Below, one piece after another: positions 766 to 10,571 of a stretch of DNA of 10,852 nucleotides (positions within the stretch are counted from its first letter, which is position 1; every line of letters starts with the position of its first letter). A model generated the notes under the pieces. That model made no database searches, had not been told where the DNA came from, and saw only the letters and a program-made list of their open reading frames with translations. This stretch comes from Pseudomonadota bacterium (GTDB taxonomy: Bacteria > Pseudomonadota > Gammaproteobacteria > Steroidobacterales > Steroidobacteraceae): positions 1-10,852 of the forward strand of contig JAJZLX010000116.1 in assembly GCA_021850555.1 (NCBI GenBank). Direction: 5' to 3'. Made by a program: the position numbers and the translations under genes.

Positions 766-1551
766 TCACGAGATTCGTACCGCGAAGCCATCGTCTGGCA
801 CTCCACCTAAATTGCGTAGGAGTTCCTCGGCCATCGACAAAAGTTCAGTCTGCTCACCTGAATCGACGGCGTTAAGCAATCGGTGGGCGAATGCGTCTCC
901 TTGCGCGAGATCCTTCAGCGAACGGTATGTCCATAGTAGCGATGTACTGCTCCAGGAGTGCCGCCACTGCAAAGTCGTACTCATCAACAACCCGACCAAC
1001 TCAATCTGGCTCAGCCGGGATTCTCGCGCGTCCGCGCCGGAGCGCGCGTCGTTTAATACGCTCAGAATTGTGCGCCGAAGAAAATCGACGCCGGTCTGAG
1101 TAAGCTTATTGGGTCCTGCCTGACGAATTCGCAGGGCGTGATTCCGCAGCGGCCCGGCCACACTCAATTCGTCCTTGAGAGCAATCATGCCGAGCACCAA
1201 GTCGACGAACTTCGCGCTCTGCGCATGTGGCGCCATATCCAACAGCTGCACGAAGCGAAAGTACGGCATGAAATTCACGTCCAGCAGTCGATCATCACAT
1301 GACGGACAGCGTAACAGTACGTTGTTGTGCGTACTCTCTCGACTTGCATACAGAACCAGGACGTCAATGTCCGACCCTGAATTGAAACAGTCCGTTAGTA
1401 CGCTTCCGCCCACGCCGATAAAGTGGGTTCCTTGAAACCGTTCGGTAATGAGTTCCACGATTGGTATTTTCCATCGGGAAATCCGCTCACGCGCGATTTC
1501 AGGTAGTACTGGCCCGGCAGATTCTTGTCCTTGTTCTAGTCCGCTGCTCAT
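766..1551 (-). CDS. Orphan nucleotidyltransferase-fold protein (261 aa)
   Basis: The protein carries the signature of the DNA polymerase beta-like nucleotidyltransferase superfamily. A GGS motif (Gly48-Gly49-Ser50) is followed eleven residues later by D61-x-D63 in the block SGSDIDVLVL, and a third likely metal-binding acid is D91 in LLDVNFM. A CPSC pair sits at residues 82-85. The C-terminal half is helical and unrecognised. Such enzymes transfer a nucleotide to small molecules (antibiotic adenylyltransferases), RNA or proteins (MNT-type antitoxins), and nothing here decides which. No HEPN partner gene is adjacent, which argues against a standard MNT/HEPN pair. ATG 1551 is preceded by GGGAG with 9-nt spacing and by a good promoter at 1588-1616. 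Its base composition looks less GC-rich than the exporter genes, which suggests separate acquisition. No gene overlaps it credibly on the plus strand. Confidence 0.8.
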   Translation of the reverse strand: MSSGLEQGQESAGPVLPEIARERISRWKIPIVELITERFQGTHFIGVGGSVLTDCFNSGSDIDVLVLYASRESTHNNVLLRCPSCDDRLLDVNFMPYFRFVQLLDMAPHAQSAKFVDLVLGMIALKDELSVAGPLRNHALRIRQAGPNKLTQTGVDFLRRTILSVLNDARSGADARESRLSQIELVGLLMSTTLQWRHSWSSTSLLWTYRSLKDLAQGDAFAHRLLNAVDSGEQTELLSMAEELLRNLGGVPDDGFAVRIS

Positions 1552-2655: not shown

Positions 2656-3038
2656 GACATAACAGTACCAAGTCATGCGCACACTTTGAGCTGTTTCAAG
2701 GGTTTCGGTCGTAGAAGGTGGTGCTGTTATTCGTTTACGGCTCCTAAGCGGGCGCTGTGCGGTCCGCATTTCACACCCGAGAACCACCCCCGCGGGACCA
2801 CCCGAGCGCGCAAGGCGAGAGGGGTCGTAGATGTGCGCCTTGGCGGCACGGCGCCCGTCCCGCGTGGGTGGGCGCGTACTCGGAACTACGGTCCAGATCT
2901 GTGACGTGACGCCGGCAGTGGCGGCGAGGAGTTCTCGCACAGCACAAGCACCGGCGTCGGGTGAGAGCGTTCGCTCCGCTGGACGCGGTCCAGCCGAGCG
3001 TCATTGCCGAGGAATTGCCGAGGCGAGGACTGGGAGTC
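2656..3038. other. Intergenic stretch without a recognisable gene
   Basis: About 380 bp lie between the decayed region and the promoter candidate for the exporter operon. Frames exist on both strands (for example a minus-strand frame across 2569-2940), but they lack family motifs, ribosome binding sites and coding character. I see no RNA gene, no long repeat and no clear terminator. Confidence 0.4.
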
Positions 3039-3068
3039 TTGTGTCTTCATGACGCATGGCGTTACACT
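3039..3068 (+). promoter_or_regulatory. Candidate promoter of the exporter operon
   Basis: TTGTGT (3039-3044), an 18-nt spacer and TACACT (3063-3068) form a plausible but weak sigma70-type promoter. It would give a leader of about 40 nt before GTG 3116. No operator-like repeat is obvious at the boxes. Confidence 0.3.
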
Positions 3069-3115: not shown

Positions 3116-4420
3116 GTGGAAGGACAAGGGGAGAGTCAGGGGCTTTTCAGGCGCGAAGCGCTGGGATCTCAGCGCCGCGCCGCTCTGGGCAGCATCCAAA
3201 TCAACACCCCGCCAGCGTTCTGGGCCGTCAGTCTCCTCGCGGCCGCCTTTGTCGTTGCTGCCGGTGTGTATCTGTATTTCGGACACTACACCCGTCGAGC
3301 CACGGTAAGCGGGATGCTGGTGCCGGCGACCGGACTCGTGACGTTGAACGCGACCGATGCAGGCGATGTGCGGGCGGTGGACGTGCACCAGGGCGAGCGG
3401 GTCGTGGCGGGTGAGCGGCTCGCGAGCTTCGACAACCCGCTCGCGAGCGCCGCGCTCGGCAACACCCTCGCGTTCATCACCTCCGAGCTCGACACCGAGC
3501 GCAAAGGTCTCGAGCAGGATCTGACGACACAACGGGCACTCGCGGCGGGCCGGAGTGCGACGCTGCGCCAGAGCGTGGCGAGCCTGCGGGCGCAACTGGC
3601 GCAGATCGACGCGCAGTTGGTGCTGCAGCGGCAGGAGGCGGCGAACATGGAGGGGCTGCTGAAGAGCATCATGCCGCTGCGCAAACAGGGGATCGTTTCG
3701 GTCTACGACATGCAGCAGCAGCAGGCCGATACCTTCAACGCCGAACTGCAGGTCAAGGCATTGCGGCGCGAGCGGCTGAGTCTGGCGCAACAGCTCGCCC
3801 AGGCCCGCCAGCAGCTGGCGCAGGTTCCGCTCACCCTCGGGGCCGAGCAAAACGCCACCCGCAACAAGCTCGCGCAGCTCGAGCAGGCTCTCGCCCAGAA
3901 TGAGGCGCGACGGGAGTGGGTGCTGCAGGCCCCGCGCGCGGGGATCGTCGCGACGGTGCTGATCAAGCCCGGGCAGGCGGTCACGGCCGGGGAGCCGCTG
4001 CTGACGGTGGTGCCGGCCGGATCGCCCCTCGAGGCACAGCTCCTGGTGCCGAGCTCGGCGGTTGGATTCGTGCGCGCGGGTCAGCGTGTGGTGCTGCGCT
4101 ATCAAGCGTTTCCGTACCAGCAGTTCGGGCTGCACTTCGGCGAGGTCGCTCAAGTCTCGCGCAGCGCCTTGTCCCCGCAGGAAGTGGCGATGCTGGTCGG
4201 AGAGCGGGTCACGGCGCCGCTGTATCGGGTACTGGTGCGCTTGAATGCGCAATCCGTCGATGCCTATGGGAAGCCCGTTGCGCTGCGTCCCGGCATGGCA
4301 TTGAGTGCGGACATTCTGTTCGATCGGCGGCGGCTGATCGAGTGGATCCTGGAGCCGATCGATGGGTTTGGCCGGCGGATGATGGTTGAGCCGGCGCTAT
4401 CGGCGAGGGCTCGCACGTGA
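3116..4420 (+). CDS. HlyD-family periplasmic adaptor of a bacteriocin/peptide exporter (434 aa)
   Basis: This is the membrane-fusion subunit that links an inner-membrane ABC exporter to an outer-membrane TolC-type channel. The short cytosolic N-terminus contains GLFRREAL, a common start motif in this subfamily. One transmembrane helix covers about residues 35-55 (FWAVSLLAAAFVVAAGVYLY). A split biotinyl-lipoyl-like domain follows (about 65-105 and 274-303, with the second half reading GIVATVLIKPGQAVTAGEPL). Between them is a Gln/Ala/Leu-rich coiled-coil hairpin (about 110-265), and a beta-barrel and membrane-proximal region runs to the end. The length is typical. GTG 3116 is chosen because AGAAGG lies 5 nt upstream. 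The stop overlaps the start of the ABC gene (GTGA at 4417-4420), so the two are translationally coupled. No outer-membrane partner is in the window, so a genomic TolC is presumably used. Confidence 0.92.
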   Translation: MEGQGESQGLFRREALGSQRRAALGSIQINTPPAFWAVSLLAAAFVVAAGVYLYFGHYTRRATVSGMLVPATGLVTLNATDAGDVRAVDVHQGERVVAGERLASFDNPLASAALGNTLAFITSELDTERKGLEQDLTTQRALAAGRSATLRQSVASLRAQLAQIDAQLVLQRQEAANMEGLLKSIMPLRKQGIVSVYDMQQQQADTFNAELQVKALRRERLSLAQQLAQARQQLAQVPLTLGAEQNATRNKLAQLEQALAQNEARREWVLQAPRAGIVATVLIKPGQAVTAGEPLLTVVPAGSPLEAQLLVPSSAVGFVRAGQRVVLRYQAFPYQQFGLHFGEVAQVSRSALSPQEVAMLVGERVTAPLYRVLVRLNAQSVDAYGKPVALRPGMALSADILFDRRRLIEWILEPIDGFGRRMMVEPALSARART

Positions 4421-6567
4421 GCGCGACGTCCGCGGCGATGAAGGACGCGCTTGCGGGCCTGCGCTTACGCGGGGGCAAGCGCCTGCCGGTGATCCTGCAG
4501 ACCGAGGCGGCCGAATGCGGCCTGGCGTGCCTCGCCATGGTGGCGAGCTACTACGGATATGAGATCGATCTGCCGGGGCTGCGACGTCAGGCGTCGATGT
4601 CCCTGAAAGGCGCCACACTCAAGCGGGTGATGGAGATTGCCGGGCAGCTGAAGCTCGATACCCGGCCGCTGCGGCTTGAGGTCGAGGAACTCCGTGAGCT
4701 GAAGACACCCTGCATCCTGCACTGGGATCTCAACCACTTGGTGGTCTTGAAGGAAGTGCGCGGCAAGGGCATCGTGATCCACGACCCGGCCCGGGGCGTG
4801 CAGCAGGTGTCGCTCGCCGAAGCCTCGAAGCATTTCACCGGGATCGCATTGGAGCTGTGGCCCTCGGCAAGCTTCAAGCGCGAGAAGGTGCGCGAGGCGG
4901 TATCGCTGCGCGCGCTCGCCGGGGAGGTGCATGGCGTCAAACGCGCGCTCACGCAGATCTTTCTGCTGGCGCTGGCCCTCGAGGCCCTCGTGCTGGCCGG
5001 ACCGTTCTACATGCAGTGGGTGCTGGATCAGGTTTTCCCCAGCGCCGACCATCAACTGCTCACCGTGCTCGGCATCGGTTTTTTGCTGCTGACGGTATTC
5101 CAGGTGGCGGTGAGCGCCGTCCGTTCGTGGTGCATCACCTGGATCAGCGCGCTGGTGAGCGTGCAGTGGGTAAACAACCTGTTCGGGCATCTGCTGCGCC
5201 TGCCGCTCGAGTTCTTCGAGAAGCGGCACATGGGCGATGTGGTCTCGCGCTTCGGCTCGGTGCGGACCATCCAGCAGACCCTGACCACGCATTTCGTGGG
5301 GGCGGTGCTGGATGGGGTGATGTCGGTGCTGACGCTGGTGCTGATGGCCTTCTACAGCGTACCGCTGACGCTGCTGGTGGTGGGAGCGTTTGCGCTGTAT
5401 GTGATTTTCCGCTGGGCGTTGTTCCGGCCGCTGCGGCGCACGACCGAGGATCAAATCGTGTACGCCGCGCGCCAGCAGAGCGATCTGCTGGAGTCGATCC
5501 GGGGCATCCAGGCCCTGAAGCTCGCCAATCAGCAGGATCAGCGCCGGGCCCGCTATGCGAACGCTCAGGTCGACACGACGAACCGGGAAATCGCGCTGCA
5601 GCGGCTGGGGATCGGCTTTACCGCGGGCAATGGGCTGATCTTCGGCCTCAGCCGGGTAGCGCTCATCTGGTGGGCGGCGGTGCTGGTGCTCAAGGGGCAG
5701 TTCAGCGCCGGGATGCTGGTGGCCTTCATCGCCTACGCCGGTCAGTTTACCGGTCGTGCCTCGGCGCTGATCGATCGGTGGAACGAGTTTCGGATGCTCG
5801 GGCTCCATGCCGAGCGGGTGGCGGACATCGCGCTCAGCTGTCCGGAGACCGATCTCGAGGGCGTGCATGCGGGATCCATTGAGGAGCCTCGCCTGGAGAT
5901 GCGCAACCTCTCGTTCCGCTACGCCGAGGGCGAACCGTGGGTCATTGAGAACTTCAGTCTCACGATCGAGCCGGGAGAAACCGTGGCGATCGCCGCGCCC
6001 TCGGGCGCGGGTAAGACGACGCTCGCGAAGCTGGTCCTCGGGCTGCTGGAGCCGAATCAGGGTGAGATCCGCTTCGGCGGCATCGACATCCGCAGGCTCG
6101 GCCTCAAGTACTACCGGGGCCTGGTCGCCGCGGTGATGCAGGACGATCACCTGTTCGCGGGCTCCATTGCCGACAACATCAGCCTGTTCGATCCGGAGGC
6201 GACGTCGCAGAGGATAGAGGCGGCGGCTCAGCTGGCACAGATCCACCAGGAAATCGTCGCCATGCCCATGGGCTACGAGACGCTGGTGGGCGACATGGGA
6301 TCGAGCCTCTCCGGCGGCCAGAAGCAGCGGGTGCTGCTCGCGCGCGCCCTGTATCGGAAGCCGAAGTTCCTGGTGCTGGATGAGGCGACGAGTCACCTCG
6401 ATGTAGCCAAGGAGCGCGAGATCAACGCGCTCGTCAAGCGCCTGAAGATCACACGGATGGTGCTTGCACACCGGCCGGAGACTCTCGCTAGCGCTGATCG
6501 GGTGATCGTGCTTGGGAAAGGTAATGTCCAGACAATCGTCGTCGGGCCGGGAAGTGGGCGTCAATGA
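4417..6567 (+). CDS. Peptidase-C39 ABC exporter for double-glycine-leader peptides (716 aa)
   Basis: This is a bifunctional processing and export ATPase of the CvaB/LagD class. The N-terminal C39 cysteine protease has the oxyanion Gln28, catalytic Cys34 (QTEAAECGLACLAM), His107 (LNHLVVL) and Asp123 (IHDPARG), so the protease looks active. A six-helix exporter membrane domain follows at about residues 175-450. The ATPase domain (about 490-700) has Walker A at 527-534 (APSGAGKT, with Ala in place of the usual first Gly), a Q-loop in VMQDDHLF, signature LSGGQ at 631-635, Walker B LVLDE at 652-656 and the H-loop His685. The length matches the family. The GTG start at 4417 overlaps the HlyD stop, and ATG 4438 is an alternative. 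Its likely substrate is the precursor at 8125-8352. The long open frame on the opposite strand here is a GC-bias shadow. Confidence 0.95.
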   Translation: MSATSAAMKDALAGLRLRGGKRLPVILQTEAAECGLACLAMVASYYGYEIDLPGLRRQASMSLKGATLKRVMEIAGQLKLDTRPLRLEVEELRELKTPCILHWDLNHLVVLKEVRGKGIVIHDPARGVQQVSLAEASKHFTGIALELWPSASFKREKVREAVSLRALAGEVHGVKRALTQIFLLALALEALVLAGPFYMQWVLDQVFPSADHQLLTVLGIGFLLLTVFQVAVSAVRSWCITWISALVSVQWVNNLFGHLLRLPLEFFEKRHMGDVVSRFGSVRTIQQTLTTHFVGAVLDGVMSVLTLVLMAFYSVPLTLLVVGAFALYVIFRWALFRPLRRTTEDQIVYAARQQSDLLESIRGIQALKLANQQDQRRARYANAQVDTTNREIALQRLGIGFTAGNGLIFGLSRVALIWWAAVLVLKGQFSAGMLVAFIAYAGQFTGRASALIDRWNEFRMLGLHAERVADIALSCPETDLEGVHAGSIEEPRLEMRNLSFRYAEGEPWVIENFSLTIEPGETVAIAAPSGAGKTTLAKLVLGLLEPNQGEIRFGGIDIRRLGLKYYRGLVAAVMQDDHLFAGSIADNISLFDPEATSQRIEAAAQLAQIHQEIVAMPMGYETLVGDMGSSLSGGQKQRVLLARALYRKPKFLVLDEATSHLDVAKEREINALVKRLKITRMVLAHRPETLASADRVIVLGKGNVQTIVVGPGSGRQ

Positions 6568-6642
6568 ATCCGCGAGGTGCATGAGATTCCGGCGGCTGAT
6601 GCCACGGAGCCTGTGATTTCAGCCCGAGCTGTTCCGTGCCAC

Positions 6643-6681
6643 CATTCTGCAACTCTCACCTTGAGTGATGGTTGCAGAGTG
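6643..6681. other. Long imperfect stem-loop after the exporter operon
   Basis: The arms 6646-6659 and 6665-6678 pair over 14 positions, with a 2-nt mismatch and a 5-nt loop (TCTGCAAC…TCAC with GTGA…GTTGCAGA), and a few more pairs extend to 6643 and 6681. It lies 75 nt after the stop of the ABC gene. It could end that transcript or act as an attenuator, but no T-run follows on either strand, so a classic intrinsic terminator is not supported. The rest of 6568-6721 shows no gene. Confidence 0.4.
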
Positions 6682-6721
6682 AAGAAAGTGTTGGTGCGAA
6701 ACGGCAAAACGGCTTCAACTC

Positions 6722-6746
6722 TGGTATGATTGAGTTGTAATACAAC
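6722..6746 (+). promoter_or_regulatory. Extended -10 promoter abutted by a perfect palindrome (GTTGTA-A-TACAAC)
   Basis: TGGTATGAT (6722-6730) is an extended -10 element, so transcription would start near 6737. That point lies inside a perfect 13-nt palindrome at 6734-6746. A repressor bound there would block initiation, as in autoregulated operons of toxin-antitoxin type. The palindrome is followed by an AAGGAG ribosome binding site at 6764-6769 and ATG at 6778. Confidence 0.45.
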
Positions 6747-6777
6747 AATCCCACCAAAGAAAGAAGGAGCCGACTGG

Positions 6778-6810
6778 ATGAAGCATAGCAAGGCTGAGGT
6801 CCATTGGTAA
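6778..6810 (+). pseudogene. Ten-codon frame behind complete expression signals; probable truncated gene start
   Basis: ATG 6778 has AAGGAG with 8-nt spacing and a promoter/operator upstream, yet the frame stops after MKHSKAEVHW at TAA 6808-6810. The decayed minus-strand transposase sequence begins within about 50 nt. The simplest reading is that the 5' end of an autoregulated gene survived while insertion or deletion removed the rest. A leader peptide is the alternative. The identity of the lost gene cannot be told from ten residues. Confidence 0.35.
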
Positions 6811-6860
6811 CTCACGGCAAATCTGTTCTGAGGCGCCCTCTTTCGTGAAGAGCCGGATGG

Positions 6861-7880
6861 TCAAACCGGCGCGGTCGGGGCGACAGGTGCAGCGGGACGC
6901 GGACAGGGGGTTCTGCGAGCATTCTCGCTCATGAGCAGGTAATCGAAGACGGTGCGCACTTTGCGATTGAGGCGGCGGAGGGTTTCCGCGACGCGCCGGC
7001 CGGGCTTGGGCTGGATGAGCGCGACGGCGAAGCGGCGCAGACGCGAGACGTTCTGTGGACCGTGGCCGGTGCGGATGCGGATGCGATCCTCGTCGAAGTT
7101 CGAGTCGATGACATAGTGGCAGCGGTTGATCTCGAGCAGGCCGTGTGCCCCGCACAGAGTCGCGGCTGCGGCGATCGCCGGCACCATGTGCAGCGGATGG
7201 CGTCGGCCTTGGCCACGGCGTGGATCGGGGATCTGGCGGAAAAACTCGGGCAGGGAGCACATTTGTTCTGCGCTGAGCATGAGCTTGGGGACTCCTCGAG
7301 TGAAAGGGGCCGGCAGATCGGCTGCCGACAATATAGCGCGGGCCTGCGGGCAAAGCGGGCGCAGCAACACGGTCTTGGGCGAGTCGGTCGTGGCGCTCTA
7401 GCCGCCCTGGCGGGCGGTATCCGCGGGTGCAGCCGACCTCGCTCCAGTTGGAGGTGCGGTAGAGCGTGCCGCGGTGTCGTCGCGGATCGACGGAGGTCGC
7501 GAGAATAAAGAATCGGATGCCCAAACGCCTCGAGCCAATCGGCGCTCACCCGTCGCTTGCACAGAGCGAGGATGTGCGAGGCGAGGTTCGGACGATGCCA
7601 GTCGGGCAAAACGTAATATTGGGAGTAGTTGGCCAGCAAGGTGCAAACGCGCGTACTGCTGCCGAGAGTTCCAGCCAATCCAGCGGGTCCCGCGCGGCAA
7701 TCTTCGATGCGGCTGTGGAAAAGCTCGGCAGCGCCACCCACCCCTGGCGCCAAGTCGCCACGTACCACAGCGTCTCGCCAATCTTCCCCAGTGCCCCGAG
7801 GTAATGGTGCCCCTGCAATCACAGCTCCTGGAAGCGTCCGCTTTCCTCCGGTCGCACCCGCCGCACCTGGGGATGGCCTT
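6861..7880 (-). pseudogene. Decayed DruA-domain (DUF4338)/ISAs1 fusion transposase
   Basis: On the minus strand the pieces run in order. A DUF4338/DruA-like part has RPEESGRFQEL, an in-frame TGA (7821-7819), HHYLGALGKIGETLWYVA, then in new frames RWIGWNSRQQYARL, LPDWHRPNLASHILAL and VDPRRHRGTLYRTSNW. A TAG at 7400-7398 follows. Next comes an ISAs1 transposase N-terminus (LPEFFRQIPDPRRGQGRRHP) and, directly after CGAHG, the ISAs1 C-terminus (NRCHYVIDSNFDEDR, RIRTGHGPQNVSRLRRFAVA, VFDYLLMSENAR). Normally some 200 or more residues with the catalytic acids lie between those two ISAs1 ends, so the core was deleted near 7140. The gene therefore has at least two stops, several frameshifts and an internal deletion, and it cannot be functional. 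Fusions of DUF4338 to ISAs1 transposases occur in insertion sequences. This is not evidence of a Druantia defence system. Confidence 0.75.
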
Positions 7881-7979
7881 GACCACCACATCACCCCGTG
7901 CCCATCACCTCCGCCACTGGGTGACCCTTATACGGCCTCGCGGCGGGAATATTCAGCCCGGGTAGAGCCGCCTTTATCG

Positions 7980-8015
7980 ATCAGGCCCTTGGCTGCAAGG
8001 CTGATTCAGCCTGAT
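7980..8015. repeat. Nested inverted repeats upstream of the precursor promoter
   Basis: An outer pair ATCAGGC (7980-7986) / GCCTGAT (8009-8015) encloses CCTTG-gctg-CAAGG (7987-8000). A competing perfect repeat AGGCTGA-T-TCAGCCT lies at 7998-8012. The block sits between the dead transposase and the -35 box at 8033. It could mark the old insertion-sequence end, a terminator for incoming transcription, or a regulator site. The remaining 7881-7979 sequence shows no gene. Confidence 0.4.
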
Positions 8016-8032
8016 TTGGAAACCGCTCAGTA

Positions 8033-8063
8033 TTGACAGGTAATCTATCTTAATTGTAGATTA
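8033..8063 (+). promoter_or_regulatory. Precursor promoter overlapped by inverted repeat TAATCTA-n9-TAGATTA
   Basis: A consensus TTGACA (8033-8038) is followed after 18 nt by TAGATT (8057-8062), a moderate -10. A perfect 7-bp inverted repeat (8041-8047 and 8057-8063) fills the spacer and covers the -10, the classic geometry for a repressor or MerR-like operator. The start codon of the precursor is 8125, giving a leader of about 55 nt that contains a T-rich tract near 8092-8099. Confidence 0.55.
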
Positions 8064-8124
8064 AGGATGCTTTAGGGGCTTTTAAGCACGTATTTTTTTG
8101 GCCAACCGAAATAGGGGAACCTCA

Positions 8125-8352
8125 ATGCGTGAACTCACCTTTGAAGAAATCAACCTAGTATCTAGCGGTCTGACCTGGACTGAAGTCGCAGCAGGGCTTA
8201 CCGTTGCATCGGCAGGGATGGCGGTGGGCGGTTATTGGACAGGTGGAGTAACGCCTGTTGGCAGCTTCTTGCTTGCTGGAGCGGCAATCACGGGTTTGAC
8301 TGCGGCCGGTATTAATTTCGCGATGAGCTTGGGTTACCTCAGTCGTTCGTGA
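8125..8352 (+). CDS. Class II microcin-like bacteriocin precursor with double-glycine-type leader (75 aa)
   Basis: The leader is MRELTFEEINLVSSG. Counting back from the cleavage point, it has Leu at -12, Glu at -8, Ile at -7 and Val at -4, which is the recognition pattern of C39 peptidases. The site ends Ser-Gly instead of Gly-Gly. Cleavage after Gly15 would release a 60-residue core starting LTWTEVAAGL and ending SLGYLSRS. The core is rich in Gly, Ala and hydrophobic residues (GMAVGGYWTGG, LLAGAAITGLTAAG), has no cysteine and is likely membrane-active, as in the colicin V class. ATG 8125 is chosen because AGGGGA lies 6 nt upstream and the leader begins exactly there; a TTG at 8098 is in frame but poor. 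The C39 exporter at 4417-6567 is the evident processor. Lower GC than the exporter genes suggests a different origin. I do not recognise it as a named bacteriocin. Confidence 0.85.
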   Translation: MRELTFEEINLVSSGLTWTEVAAGLTVASAGMAVGGYWTGGVTPVGSFLLAGAAITGLTAAGINFAMSLGYLSRS

Positions 8353-8440
8353 TGATGAAGGAGACAAGCGACGCCTCGTGAATTTTGCGGATGGGCCTAA
8401 AACCTCGAGCCAACGGTCCTCATTTCTTGGAGCGATGCGT

Positions 8441-8719
8441 ATGAATCGATGGCTATTACTTTACTCTATGGTCGTCTTCACAGCGGTCGTGGTCGCTTAT
8501 ATCATCAGATTTACCGCGCCTCCGCGTTGGCAGCAAGCGCTTCTGCAGCTGATGCTCAGACTCTTGACCTTGTCATTTGGGGTGTTTGGTGCCACGTATG
8601 TTGCTGCGGGAATGCCAGCGCTTGGCTGGCTGCTGATCGCTGCTGCGACAATCGGCAGTGTCCTTGTGCCTCTGAGGCCGAACGCTGATCGGAAGGTCTT
8701 GCATAGCGGCCTCACATGA
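8441..8719 (+). CDS. Small membrane protein, candidate bacteriocin immunity protein (92 aa)
   Basis: The protein is hydrophobic, with three likely transmembrane helices at about residues 4-22 (WLLLYSMVVFTAVVVAYII), 41-56 and 59-78 (PALGWLLIAAATIGSVLVPL), and short charged ends. The gene lies 88 nt after the bacteriocin precursor on the same strand, where immunity genes of class II microcins usually sit. These are typically membrane proteins of 50-120 residues. I recognise no family motif, so the immunity role is inferred from position, size and topology. ATG 8441 is preferred because GGAG ends 8 nt upstream. ATG 8435 and GTG 8378 (AAGGAG at 8358-8363, spacing 14) are alternatives that add 2 or 21 residues. 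It has AT-richer codon use like the precursor, so the two probably moved together. Confidence 0.65.
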   Translation: MNRWLLLYSMVVFTAVVVAYIIRFTAPPRWQQALLQLMLRLLTLSFGVFGATYVAAGMPALGWLLIAAATIGSVLVPLRPNADRKVLHSGLT

Positions 8720-8723
8720 GACT

Positions 8724-8744
8724 CCGAGAGACGTACGCTCTCGG
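8724..8744 (+). terminator. Hairpin after the putative immunity gene
   Basis: CCGAGAG (8724-8730) pairs perfectly with CTCTCGG (8738-8744) across a 7-nt loop, 4 nt after the stop codon. Only two T residues follow, so it is at best a weak intrinsic terminator. It probably closes the precursor-immunity transcript. Confidence 0.35.
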
Positions 8745-8782
8745 TTGCGGCATTGATTACGGCGAGGAGCTCTCTCCGTCGG

Positions 8783-8886
8783 AAACGTGAGTGCATCGTT
8801 TGCGGGTGGAAAGTAGACTGGGGGTGCAATTCCCCCCGGTCAACTCTCCACGTCGAAGATTACAATCCATCTGTCCGCGTGGACAG
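8783..8886 (+). other. Structured segment with several hairpins upstream of an HTH gene
   Basis: There are three consecutive stems. AAACG/CGTTT is at 8783-8787/8797-8801. A 9-bp stem GACTGGGGG/CCCCCGGTC (8816-8824, 8833-8841) is extended by GTGGA/TCCAC (8806-8810, 8847-8851) across a symmetric internal loop. CTGTCC-gcgt-GGACAG is at 8871-8886. The central GGGGG-TGCAATT-CCCCC part resembles a tRNA T-arm, but no complete tRNA can be folded around it. It may be a structured 5' leader of the HTH gene or an attachment-site relic. Confidence 0.35.
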
Positions 8887-8908
8887 TCTTTCCGGGGCAG
8901 CGCTGAAA

Positions 8909-9253
8909 GTGAACAAGACCCGCACGGTGAAGGTGTCGCTCGATGCGCAGGGCGAGGTGCAATTCAAGCTCAATGCCCGCCTACCAAAGCGCTGGCGCAA
9001 CCCCTCCCCTGAGACGATTCTCAAGGCACGCAAGGCCGCCGGGCTGACCCAGGAGGCCGCGGCCGAGAAGTGTCTCTCGGCACTTCGCTCCTGGCAGGAT
9101 TGGGAGTACGGAAAGCGCCGCATGCACCCAGCGATCTGGCAGGTGTTCCAGAATGCCACGGCGTCGGAACAAGCTGCCGTCGGCACGAAGCGCTCGAAGT
9201 CCCTTGTGCGTCAGGGCCGAGCGGATCGGGCGCACCAAAGCACCCGGGTGTAA
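8909..9253 (+). CDS. XRE-like helix-turn-helix protein (about 114 aa)
   Basis: The recognisable part is a helix-turn-helix domain: ETILKARKAAGLTQEAAAEK, then CLSALRSWQDWEYGKRRMHP and AIWQVF. The GLTQxxAA turn and the WxxWExGxRxMxPA ending are typical of XRE-like regulators on plasmids and phages. Before it is a short strand-rich stretch (TVKVSLDAQGEVQFKL), and after it a basic tail. The domain is clearly paralogous to that of the convergent gene at 9278-9634. The start is uncertain: the frame is open back to TTG 8753, but that part runs through the hairpin segment. GTG 8909 gives a natural start (MNKTRTVKV) with GGGG about 12 nt upstream, and GTG 8879 is also possible. It may regulate the nearby divergent-promoter repeat; this is inference. 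Confidence 0.6.
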   Translation: MNKTRTVKVSLDAQGEVQFKLNARLPKRWRNPSPETILKARKAAGLTQEAAAEKCLSALRSWQDWEYGKRRMHPAIWQVFQNATASEQAAVGTKRSKSLVRQGRADRAHQSTRV

Positions 9254-9277
9254 CCCCCGACTTCCGGCGGCATTCCC

Positions 9278-9634
9278 CTATCTGGGGATTCCCGCGGGAC
9301 CAGGCCGACGCGGATTTGAGTGTGTGGCGGCCTTCATTGCGCTCGCAGGCCACCCGTGATGTTCGACGAGCGCCCGGAGGAACGTCCGGAAGATTGCCGG
9401 GGGCATCCGCTCACGTCCCGACTCCCAGCCCCGCCACTCCTTGAGCGTCGAGAGGCAAAGCTTCGCAGCCTTGCTCGGGCTCAGGCCGGACTGGCGCCGG
9501 AGTTCCTTCAGGACCTGCGGCATCTCCTCGCGTGAGGGGGGCGTGTGCTTTGCCGCTCCGGGGTGGTGATTCTCGGCGATGTAGCGCTGGTGCATGAGGA
9601 AGGGAAGCATTCCGGCGCTGTTTGGCTTTCGCAT
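9278..9634 (-). CDS. XRE-like helix-turn-helix protein, divergent from the repeat promoter (118 aa)
   Basis: The protein starts MRKPNSAGMLP at ATG 9634, with GGGAG 8 nt upstream. An unstructured N-terminus of about 35 residues is followed by a helix-turn-helix domain: MPQVLKELRRQSGLSPSKAA, then KLCLSTLKEWRGWESGRERM and PPAIFRTF. It shares the GL…AA, CLS, W…WExG and RM…PAI pattern with the convergent gene ending at 9253, about 24 nt away. Its promoter is the minus-strand one in repeat copy 2, so autoregulation at the palindrome 9652-9670 is plausible. The start of this gene resembles that of the truncated gene at 1-100. It likely binds DNA as a dimer; the target is unknown. Confidence 0.7.
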   Translation of the reverse strand: MRKPNSAGMLPFLMHQRYIAENHHPGAAKHTPPSREEMPQVLKELRRQSGLSPSKAAKLCLSTLKEWRGWESGRERMPPAIFRTFLRALVEHHGWPASAMKAATHSNPRRPGPAGIPR

Positions 9635-9712
9635 GTGCAAATCTCCCTTCGCCTCTCAGGACTTGAGGGGTCGTGCCATGATGCGCAACCGGCGCGTTGT
9701 TCTTATTGTTTT

Positions 9713-9741
9713 ATTTTATCCTTTGGCGTCGCGGCAGTCAA
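9713..9741 (-). promoter_or_regulatory. Promoter of the HTH gene in repeat copy 2
   Basis: On the minus strand there is TTGACT (9741-9736), 17 nt and TAAAAT (9718-9713), identical to copy 1. Transcription would begin near 9706 and cross the conserved palindrome before reaching ATG 9634. Confidence 0.6.
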
Positions 9742-9769
9742 TGACGGCAGGTCGGTACGCGCGTATTTT
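9741..9769 (+). promoter_or_regulatory. Promoter of the 245-residue protein in repeat copy 2
   Basis: ATGACG (9741-9746), 17 nt and TATTTT (9764-9769) form a moderate promoter whose -35 box touches that of the opposite promoter. The start codon 9837 lies about 60 nt after the expected start site. Confidence 0.4.
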
Positions 9770-9836
9770 ATTTCGACGGCAGGTTCCCTAGAGACTCTCA
9801 GACCAACAGGCAGCGCGCGTGCTGCGGGGGTATGAC

Positions 9837-10571
9837 ATGAGAGAGATCGCGAGAGACGCCACATCCGCCACCATGGAGAGGGGAGCTGTGGGCCGTAACG
9901 AGTGGGAGCAGGGCACGTTTCGAATCCCGGCCAACCGCTGGACGAGCTTCAAGGGGGCGCTACGACTGGCCTACAACGAGGGGCTGGCGGCGGATCTGGT
10001 GCTCGCCGAACAGGTGCTCACGAAGGTCAAGGCCGATCACAAACGCCGTCGCAACGTCGATTGGCGCGCGGCGCTCACCCAGGAGATCGATGCGCAGGAT
10101 CCGCGCTCCGGCGGCGGTGGCACGTTCCGGCCAAACTACCGGTTCGGCGTGCTCGGCTCGGCGGCAGTTATCGCCAAAGCGTGCACGGGGCTTGTCGATG
10201 GGCGCGGCAAGCTTCGGTCGCTGAAGAAAAAGGACTTTCCGCGGGCGACCAACAAGACGACCACGTTCGATGCCGACACTGGGACGATTTCCCTACACGA
10301 TCCGGATCGCACCGTGGTCTGGAATGTCCCGGGCGGGGACTACGCCTGCGAACGGGCGCGCTCGAGCCACATGGCCCGCACGCTCTTTCGGCTCCTCGAT
10401 GGGATCGCTTGGTCGCGCGGCACTGGCGGGTACATCGTTGGCGACGACGGGAACAACCGAGCGAATTCGCCGGCCGACGTCGGCGAGGGTGTGAACCTGT
10501 TGAAAACGCCCTACTACGGGCCGGTCGGGAAGAGGGAAGCTGAGTCTCGGGGGCAGCGCAGATCGCGCTGA
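9837..10571 (+). CDS. Unrecognised 245-residue protein expressed from the repeat
   Basis: I do not recognise the family. The coding character is good: strong GC-rich codon use, one open frame and no stops. Residues 1-16 (MREIARDATSATMERG) are encoded by the repeat and also start the chimeric frame at 303. A helical N-terminal part rich in Leu, Ala and Lys (LRLAYNEGLAADLVLAEQVL) is followed by a basic patch (KADHKRRR). The middle has FRPNYRFGVLGSAAVIAKAC and FDADTGTISLHDPDRTVVWN, and a Gly-rich end has WSRGTGGYIVGDDGNN. There is no signal peptide or membrane helix. ATG 9837 (GGGGG 6 nt upstream) is preferred; GTG 9819 and ATG 9873 are alternatives. The last residues (KREAESRGQRRSR) could follow a late frameshift. 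Its divergent neighbour is an HTH gene, so it may belong to a plasmid or phage-like module. Confidence 0.65.
   Translation: MREIARDATSATMERGAVGRNEWEQGTFRIPANRWTSFKGALRLAYNEGLAADLVLAEQVLTKVKADHKRRRNVDWRAALTQEIDAQDPRSGGGGTFRPNYRFGVLGSAAVIAKACTGLVDGRGKLRSLKKKDFPRATNKTTTFDADTGTISLHDPDRTVVWNVPGGDYACERARSSHMARTLFRLLDGIAWSRGTGGYIVGDDGNNRANSPADVGEGVNLLKTPYYGPVGKREAESRGQRRSR

Follow-up and report, generated by a model that had tools for sequence, protein, structure and literature searches.

A candidate class II microcin-like peptide with a Ser-Gly leader ending near a C39 exporter in a proteobacterial locus

The analyzed window, meaning the whole stretch of 10,852 nucleotides, contains a peptide precursor gene at 8125–8352 on the plus strand. 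As the original prediction had described, this gene is a frame of 75 aa, here starting with ATG, whose leader carries L-12, E-8, I-7, and V-4. The C39-type leader (8125–8169, plus strand) has the 15-aa sequence MRELTFEEINLVSSG and ends in Ser-Gly, and the core peptide of 60 aa and the stop codon occupy 8170–8352 on the same strand. The Gly/Ala-rich, Cys-free character claimed for the core was confirmed by its composition. Starting at LTWTE, the core includes 11 Gly, 11 Ala, and 0 Cys, with a mass of 5.84 kDa, a GRAVY value of 0.92, and a near neutral charge of −0.24 at pH 7. A helical hairpin was predicted, with helices at precursor residues 18–40 and 44–68 (mean pLDDT 72.7, pTM 0.40, 7 sequences).

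A ribosome-binding stretch, AGGGG, was located at 8113–8117, seven bases 5′ of the peptide ATG. A TTG at 8098 would give a longer frame of 84 aa; it was set aside as the start, since the ATG at 8125 has this ribosome site and matches the ATG of a related locus, L002. Further 5′ of the peptide gene, a sigma-70-like promoter (TTGACA / 18 nt / TAGATT) was found at 8033–8062 on the plus strand, and an inverted repeat, TAATCTA/TAGATTA (8041–8047 and 8057–8063), overlaps its −10 box. Two promoter-like sites were counted within 6500–9300, compared to a shuffle mean of 0.6. The promoter region is not conserved in L002, because DNA similarity to that locus begins only at 8122.

An intact C39 exporter and an HlyD protein had been predicted about 1.6 kb upstream of the peptide gene, and both are present as open, complete frames on the plus strand. 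The HlyD-family membrane fusion protein is encoded at 3116–4420 (PF13437, E 7.4e-14; TIGR01843, E 2.8e-46, below the cut-off of that model). The ABC exporter is encoded at 4417–6567 and contains a Peptidase_C39 domain (PF03412, E 1.6e-34) together with PF00664 and PF00005; it ends 1.56 kb before the peptide start. In an alignment of eight exporters, residues C34, H107, and D123 matched the catalytic triad of CvaB in spacing (73 and 16), the CvaB triad being given as C32, H105, and D121 (PMC9746304).

The peptide gene is followed by orf2 (8441–8719, plus strand), which begins 88 bases after the peptide stop and encodes a candidate immunity protein. Its product is a hydrophobic, basic, membrane-type protein of 92 aa (pI 11.4) without a leader. 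Four helices were predicted at residues 3–25, 28–55, 59–75, and 80–91, comprising three long and one short (mean pLDDT 73.2). Immunity proteins of class II microcins are described as 51–216 aa in length, encoded nearby, and usually small inner-membrane proteins (PMC9746304), and orf2 agrees with them in length, position, and predicted helices. The orf2 product would probably be the immunity protein of the peptide. The structural models of the peptide and orf2, both of moderate confidence, are compatible with membrane insertion, short of proof.

To compare loci, the best 80 were retained from 361 stretches that encode a relative of the exporter. One of these, L002 (MAG SKS3.bin44), contains a clear copy of the peptide at 574–801, with 67% identity across all 75 residues. 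The orf2 product was 59% identical to L002:887–1162 over its full length (64% over 83 residues in another alignment). The peptide genes differ at 61 bases, distributed as 18, 10, and 33 over codon positions 1, 2, and 3 (p = 0.0012). Pairwise dN/dS values between the window and L002 were 0.22 for the peptide (0.31 for the core), 0.39 for orf2, and 0.19 for both the exporter and HlyD; these values are rough because the dS of the peptide is high (0.93) and that of the leader is saturated. By these values all four genes are constrained, and constraint is weakest on the core and on orf2, which is what a toxin-immunity pair would be expected to show. Furthermore, the frame, start, and ribosome site of the peptide gene are intact and the gene is conserved.

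The protein database yielded five homologs of the peptide, including P0001, whose identity to the window peptide is 99%, and seven entries for orf2 (P0006–P0012), of which P0006 is the window's own sequence. According to the original prediction, homologs of the core lacking a leader or linkage to an exporter would have spoken against a bacteriocin. All five homologs start with the same leader, and L002 encodes both the C39 exporter and HlyD. Thus, the linkage recurs in a second genome, with thin support as L002 is the one other genome with readable context.

The chance expectation of the leader was estimated using 200 dinucleotide shuffles of the window. The strict 15-mer pattern in ATG frames occurred at a mean of 0.02 per shuffle and in a fraction of 0.02 of the shuffles. 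A looser pattern, which accepts any start codon and longer leaders, had a mean of 0.31 and appeared at least once in 26% of shuffles. The window itself includes a second, looser match at 2864–3052. Therefore, the leader pattern taken by itself carries modest weight and would not suffice; conservation is the stronger evidence for a real gene, and no frame with a 15-mer leader other than the peptide was found in the window and in L002.

The end of the leader departs from the known pattern. The residues at −12, −8, −7, and −4 follow the C39 recognition pattern as predicted, but the ending differs: class II microcin leaders are reported to end in GG or GA (PMC9746304, PMC11494933), and with Ser at −2 the window leader is not a true double-glycine site. 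The corresponding ending is CG in L002, P0003, P0004, and P0005, and AA in P0002. Among comparable leaders from the 80 exporter loci, 59 of 60 have Gly at −2 (50 GG and 9 GA), and the sole exception is the L002 peptide; this count covers ATG frames with a 15-mer pattern free at −2, with Gly or Ala demanded at −1 and certain residues at 2 and 3, it excludes the window itself, and at least one frame is duplicated because L041 and L050 overlap. For microcin PDI, replacement of the −2 Gly by Ala is described as giving indications of weaker cutting, and cutting was abolished once Ala replaced both Gly (PMC5311971). PCAT1 is described with a narrow cleft at the cut site (PMC6959990). LahT150 is reported to require hydrophobic residues at −4, −7, and −12 (PMC10885120), all of which are present in the window leader.

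Processing is uncertain because the leader lacks GG or GA, and the window precursor may be processed weakly or the exporter may be tolerant. An adapted C39 pocket in the window and L002 exporters was considered and rejected, as the alignment of eight exporters contained no position common to these two but absent from L001, L003, and L073. With no exporter residue marking the window and L002 together, the exporters give no hint of protease adaptation. A tentative reading, which we would not yet favor, is a microcin-type family that has Ser, Cys, or Ala at −2 in place of Gly as a conserved trait and whose leader a C39 exporter nonetheless cuts and exports. If it is true, searches that use a GG/GA ending as a criterion would pass over such a family, and the deviation would show that criteria such as those described in PMC11494933 miss real substrates.

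The arrangement of the genes also differs between loci. L002 is a compact cluster in the order peptide (574–801), orf2 (887–1165), HlyD, C39 ABC exporter, and a nucleotidyltransferase gene. The window is rearranged compared to L002, with the nucleotidyltransferase gene (766–1551, minus strand) followed by HlyD, the ABC exporter, part of a transposase gene, the peptide, and orf2. The transposase part is an apparently incomplete frame on the minus strand with a DDE_Tnp_1-associated domain (6861–7370; PF13808, E 4.4e-9), and the three frames adjoining or overlapping it have no Pfam matches. The nucleotidyltransferase-like gene lies near the exporter in both loci (L002:5318–6226); the two versions are 78% identical with a dS lower than that of the exporter, and they differ in position and orientation.

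The nearest relatives of the window exporter are in L001, L003, and L073. The L001 exporter is the closest at 89.4% identity, and the exporters of L002, L003, and L073 are about 92% alike. These three loci carry other GG/GA-leader peptides located 3′ of the ABC gene (L001:10211–10411, L003:8082–8336, and L073:9118–9309), each adjoined by small ORFs, none of which matched orf2. The L001 and L073 peptides gave weak Bacteriocin_IIc matches below the cut-off. The window peptide had no match at E ≤ 0.01 in the genomes of these loci (G003, G004, and G002, respectively; completeness unstated). Because the closest exporters carry different peptides beside different small ORFs, the cargo seems to have been swapped on a conserved exporter (80–92% identity). 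A lost GG peptide directly 3′ of the window ABC gene was also considered and discarded, since tblastn of the three sister peptides gave only weak matches (E 0.07 or worse).

The precursor approached the Pfam MccV family (PF17508) at E 0.0014 over residues 1–50, with 19.6 bits compared to a cut-off of 27, and is therefore below membership. This approach depended on the leader, because the core alone gave no Pfam match at E ≤ 1. A search of NCBIfam with the peptide returned nothing relevant. The core had no sequence match in PDB, and neither the peptide nor the orf2 model had a PDB fold match at E ≤ 0.001. A literature search of limited scope found no published report of this peptide. The expectation of a probably new peptide, distinct from named bacteriocins, held in that no family matched at its curated cut-off. 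The absence of Cys as a mark of novelty did not hold, since microcin N, a class IIa member, is listed with 0 Cys (PMC10233263).

Compared to the class as described, the peptide shows several of the expected traits. Class II microcins are reported to have leaders of 15–18 aa that are hydrophobic at −4, −7, and −12 and Gly contents of 12–26% (PMC11494933). The window leader has 15 aa with V, I, and L at these positions, and Gly accounts for 16.0% of the precursor and 18.3% of the core. Both a membrane fusion protein and a C39 exporter that has the catalytic triad are encoded nearby, and the leader ends in SG instead of GG or GA. Class IIb does not fit, because the C-terminus, MSLGYLSRS, lacks the long Ser/Gly-rich stretch that is described for siderophore attachment (PMC10233263); class IIa fits in kind. 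On the sequence evidence, the window peptide would work like a class II microcin, and it was not filed as a confirmed member because GG or GA is absent and processing is possibly weak.

Like the microcin V system (CvaA/CvaB/TolC), the locus has an HlyD-type partner, a Gly-rich core, and a C39 ABC exporter, and the triad spacing of the two exporters is the same. MccV also has an adjoining gene for a small membrane immunity protein. The leader of microcin V likewise has 15 aa (PMC5311971). However, its mature peptide is described as 88 aa with 2 Cys behind a double glycine, compared to 60 aa, 0 Cys, and SG in the window. Microcin N, set beside the window core by composition and length alone, shares the absence of Cys and a similar Gly content (18.9% and 18.3%), but is listed with a longer mature peptide (74 aa; PMC10233263). 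The L001, L003, and L073 peptides belong to the same exporter clade and hold the same place in the system, but they differ in their cores, GG/GA endings, position 3′ of the ABC gene, and accompanying small ORFs. A class II microcin has been reported in Acinetobacter (PMC10333792), and 12 of 23 candidates from plant-associated genera were described as active, much weaker than MccV (PMC13174018); a true bacteriocin is therefore plausible here, though uncertain.

Taken together, this proteobacterial locus probably encodes a class II microcin-like bacteriocin system in which orf2 specifies the immunity protein. We infer that the C39 domain of the exporter would recognize the leader of the 75-aa precursor and cut after residue 15, and that the core would leave through the ABC protein, HlyD, and a channel of the TolC type whose gene would lie elsewhere. 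Related competitors may then be killed as the hydrophobic Gly/Ala-rich hairpin inserts into their inner membrane, with the small membrane protein of orf2 protecting the producer. The antibacterial, membrane-active nature of the core, proposed from the outset, is thus a predicted one. The non-Gly residue at −2, the transposase fragment between the exporter and the cassette, the core without a family match, linkage in a single other genome, and the frequency of the looser leader pattern in shuffles count against a microcin. The first two of these would suit a decaying cassette, in which the leader Gly was lost, a transposon separated the exporter, and export ceased; homolog P0002, with its AA ending and divergent tail, points the same way. 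However, the peptide and orf2 are under constraint, the peptide gene has kept its frame, start, and ribosome site, and Gly is missing at −2 in the compact L002 cluster too, and likewise in P0003, P0004, and P0005, so that decay appears rather improbable.

C39 exporters are also reported to export peptides for cell-to-cell communication (PMC7018657), and the near neutral core would agree with a peptide that is not a bacteriocin, for instance a signaling or surface peptide, with orf2 as a membrane sensor or helper. Against this, the core is long and hydrophobic, and unrelated cores beside different small ORFs on the sister exporters would be expected from turnover of weapon and immunity genes more than from a signal that is conserved; we consider this reading unlikely, if still worth weighing. 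The peptide and orf2 adjoin in both loci with readable context and are both hydrophobic, as two partners of a two-component bacteriocin or of an internal membrane pair would be, with orf2 having no immunity role. This is very improbable in our estimation: orf2 has no leader, its product is basic, and three long helices were predicted for it, in keeping with the small inner-membrane immunity proteins described in PMC9746304. If the microcin-like system is active, it would add a bacteriocin family without a named relative in the Pfam, NCBIfam, and PDB searches, with a likely immunity gene in hand. The exporter locus, with its apparently exchanged cargo, offers a natural setting for studying weapon turnover.

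The distribution of the pair was narrow. Strong profile matches to the peptide and orf2 among 148 relatives came from the same single genome, G001, which is the genome of L002; among 369 genomes of the class, orf2 was found only there and the peptide strongly only there, and in a second set of 148 genomes, relatives of G003, orf2 was again confined to G001, with part of the candidates scored in some genomes. Weak peptide-profile matches in G028, G035, and G099 (E 0.0018–0.0072) were dropped because the frames are longer (149–253 aa), one has an internal stop, and the profile is partly covered. Weak tblastn matches in other loci, such as L058, L062, and L021, start at the leader with 31–35% identity and were not accepted as homologs. 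A plasmid home was rejected, as neither the peptide nor orf2 matched in 72,556 plasmid records; the only near-DNA plasmid matches of the window are short exporter stretches in seven Rhizobium records. A phage or viral home was also rejected, since the peptide matched none of 50,697 phage records and no match was confirmed in two pattern scans of viral contigs. The source of P0002 names it a CHASE2 domain-containing sensor protein, apparently in error.

Several further features were observed in the window. Two HTH_31-like small proteins are encoded 3′ of orf2 at 8753–9253 (plus strand) and 9278–9640 (minus strand); the first falls below the Pfam cut-off, which the second reaches. A direct repeat of 277 bases with 93% identity (73–349 and 9607–9883) flanks the region; its copies start about 9.5 kb apart, each enters a different reading frame, and they may delimit a segment that is duplicated or mobile. 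Finally, a frame of 250 aa at 9819–10571 was 27–35% identical to hypothetical proteins in plasmid records (best 8 of 11 matches), those listed being from Variovorax, Arthrobacter, Dietzia, Thioalkalivibrio, and Rhodococcus, which may hint at a mobile setting.
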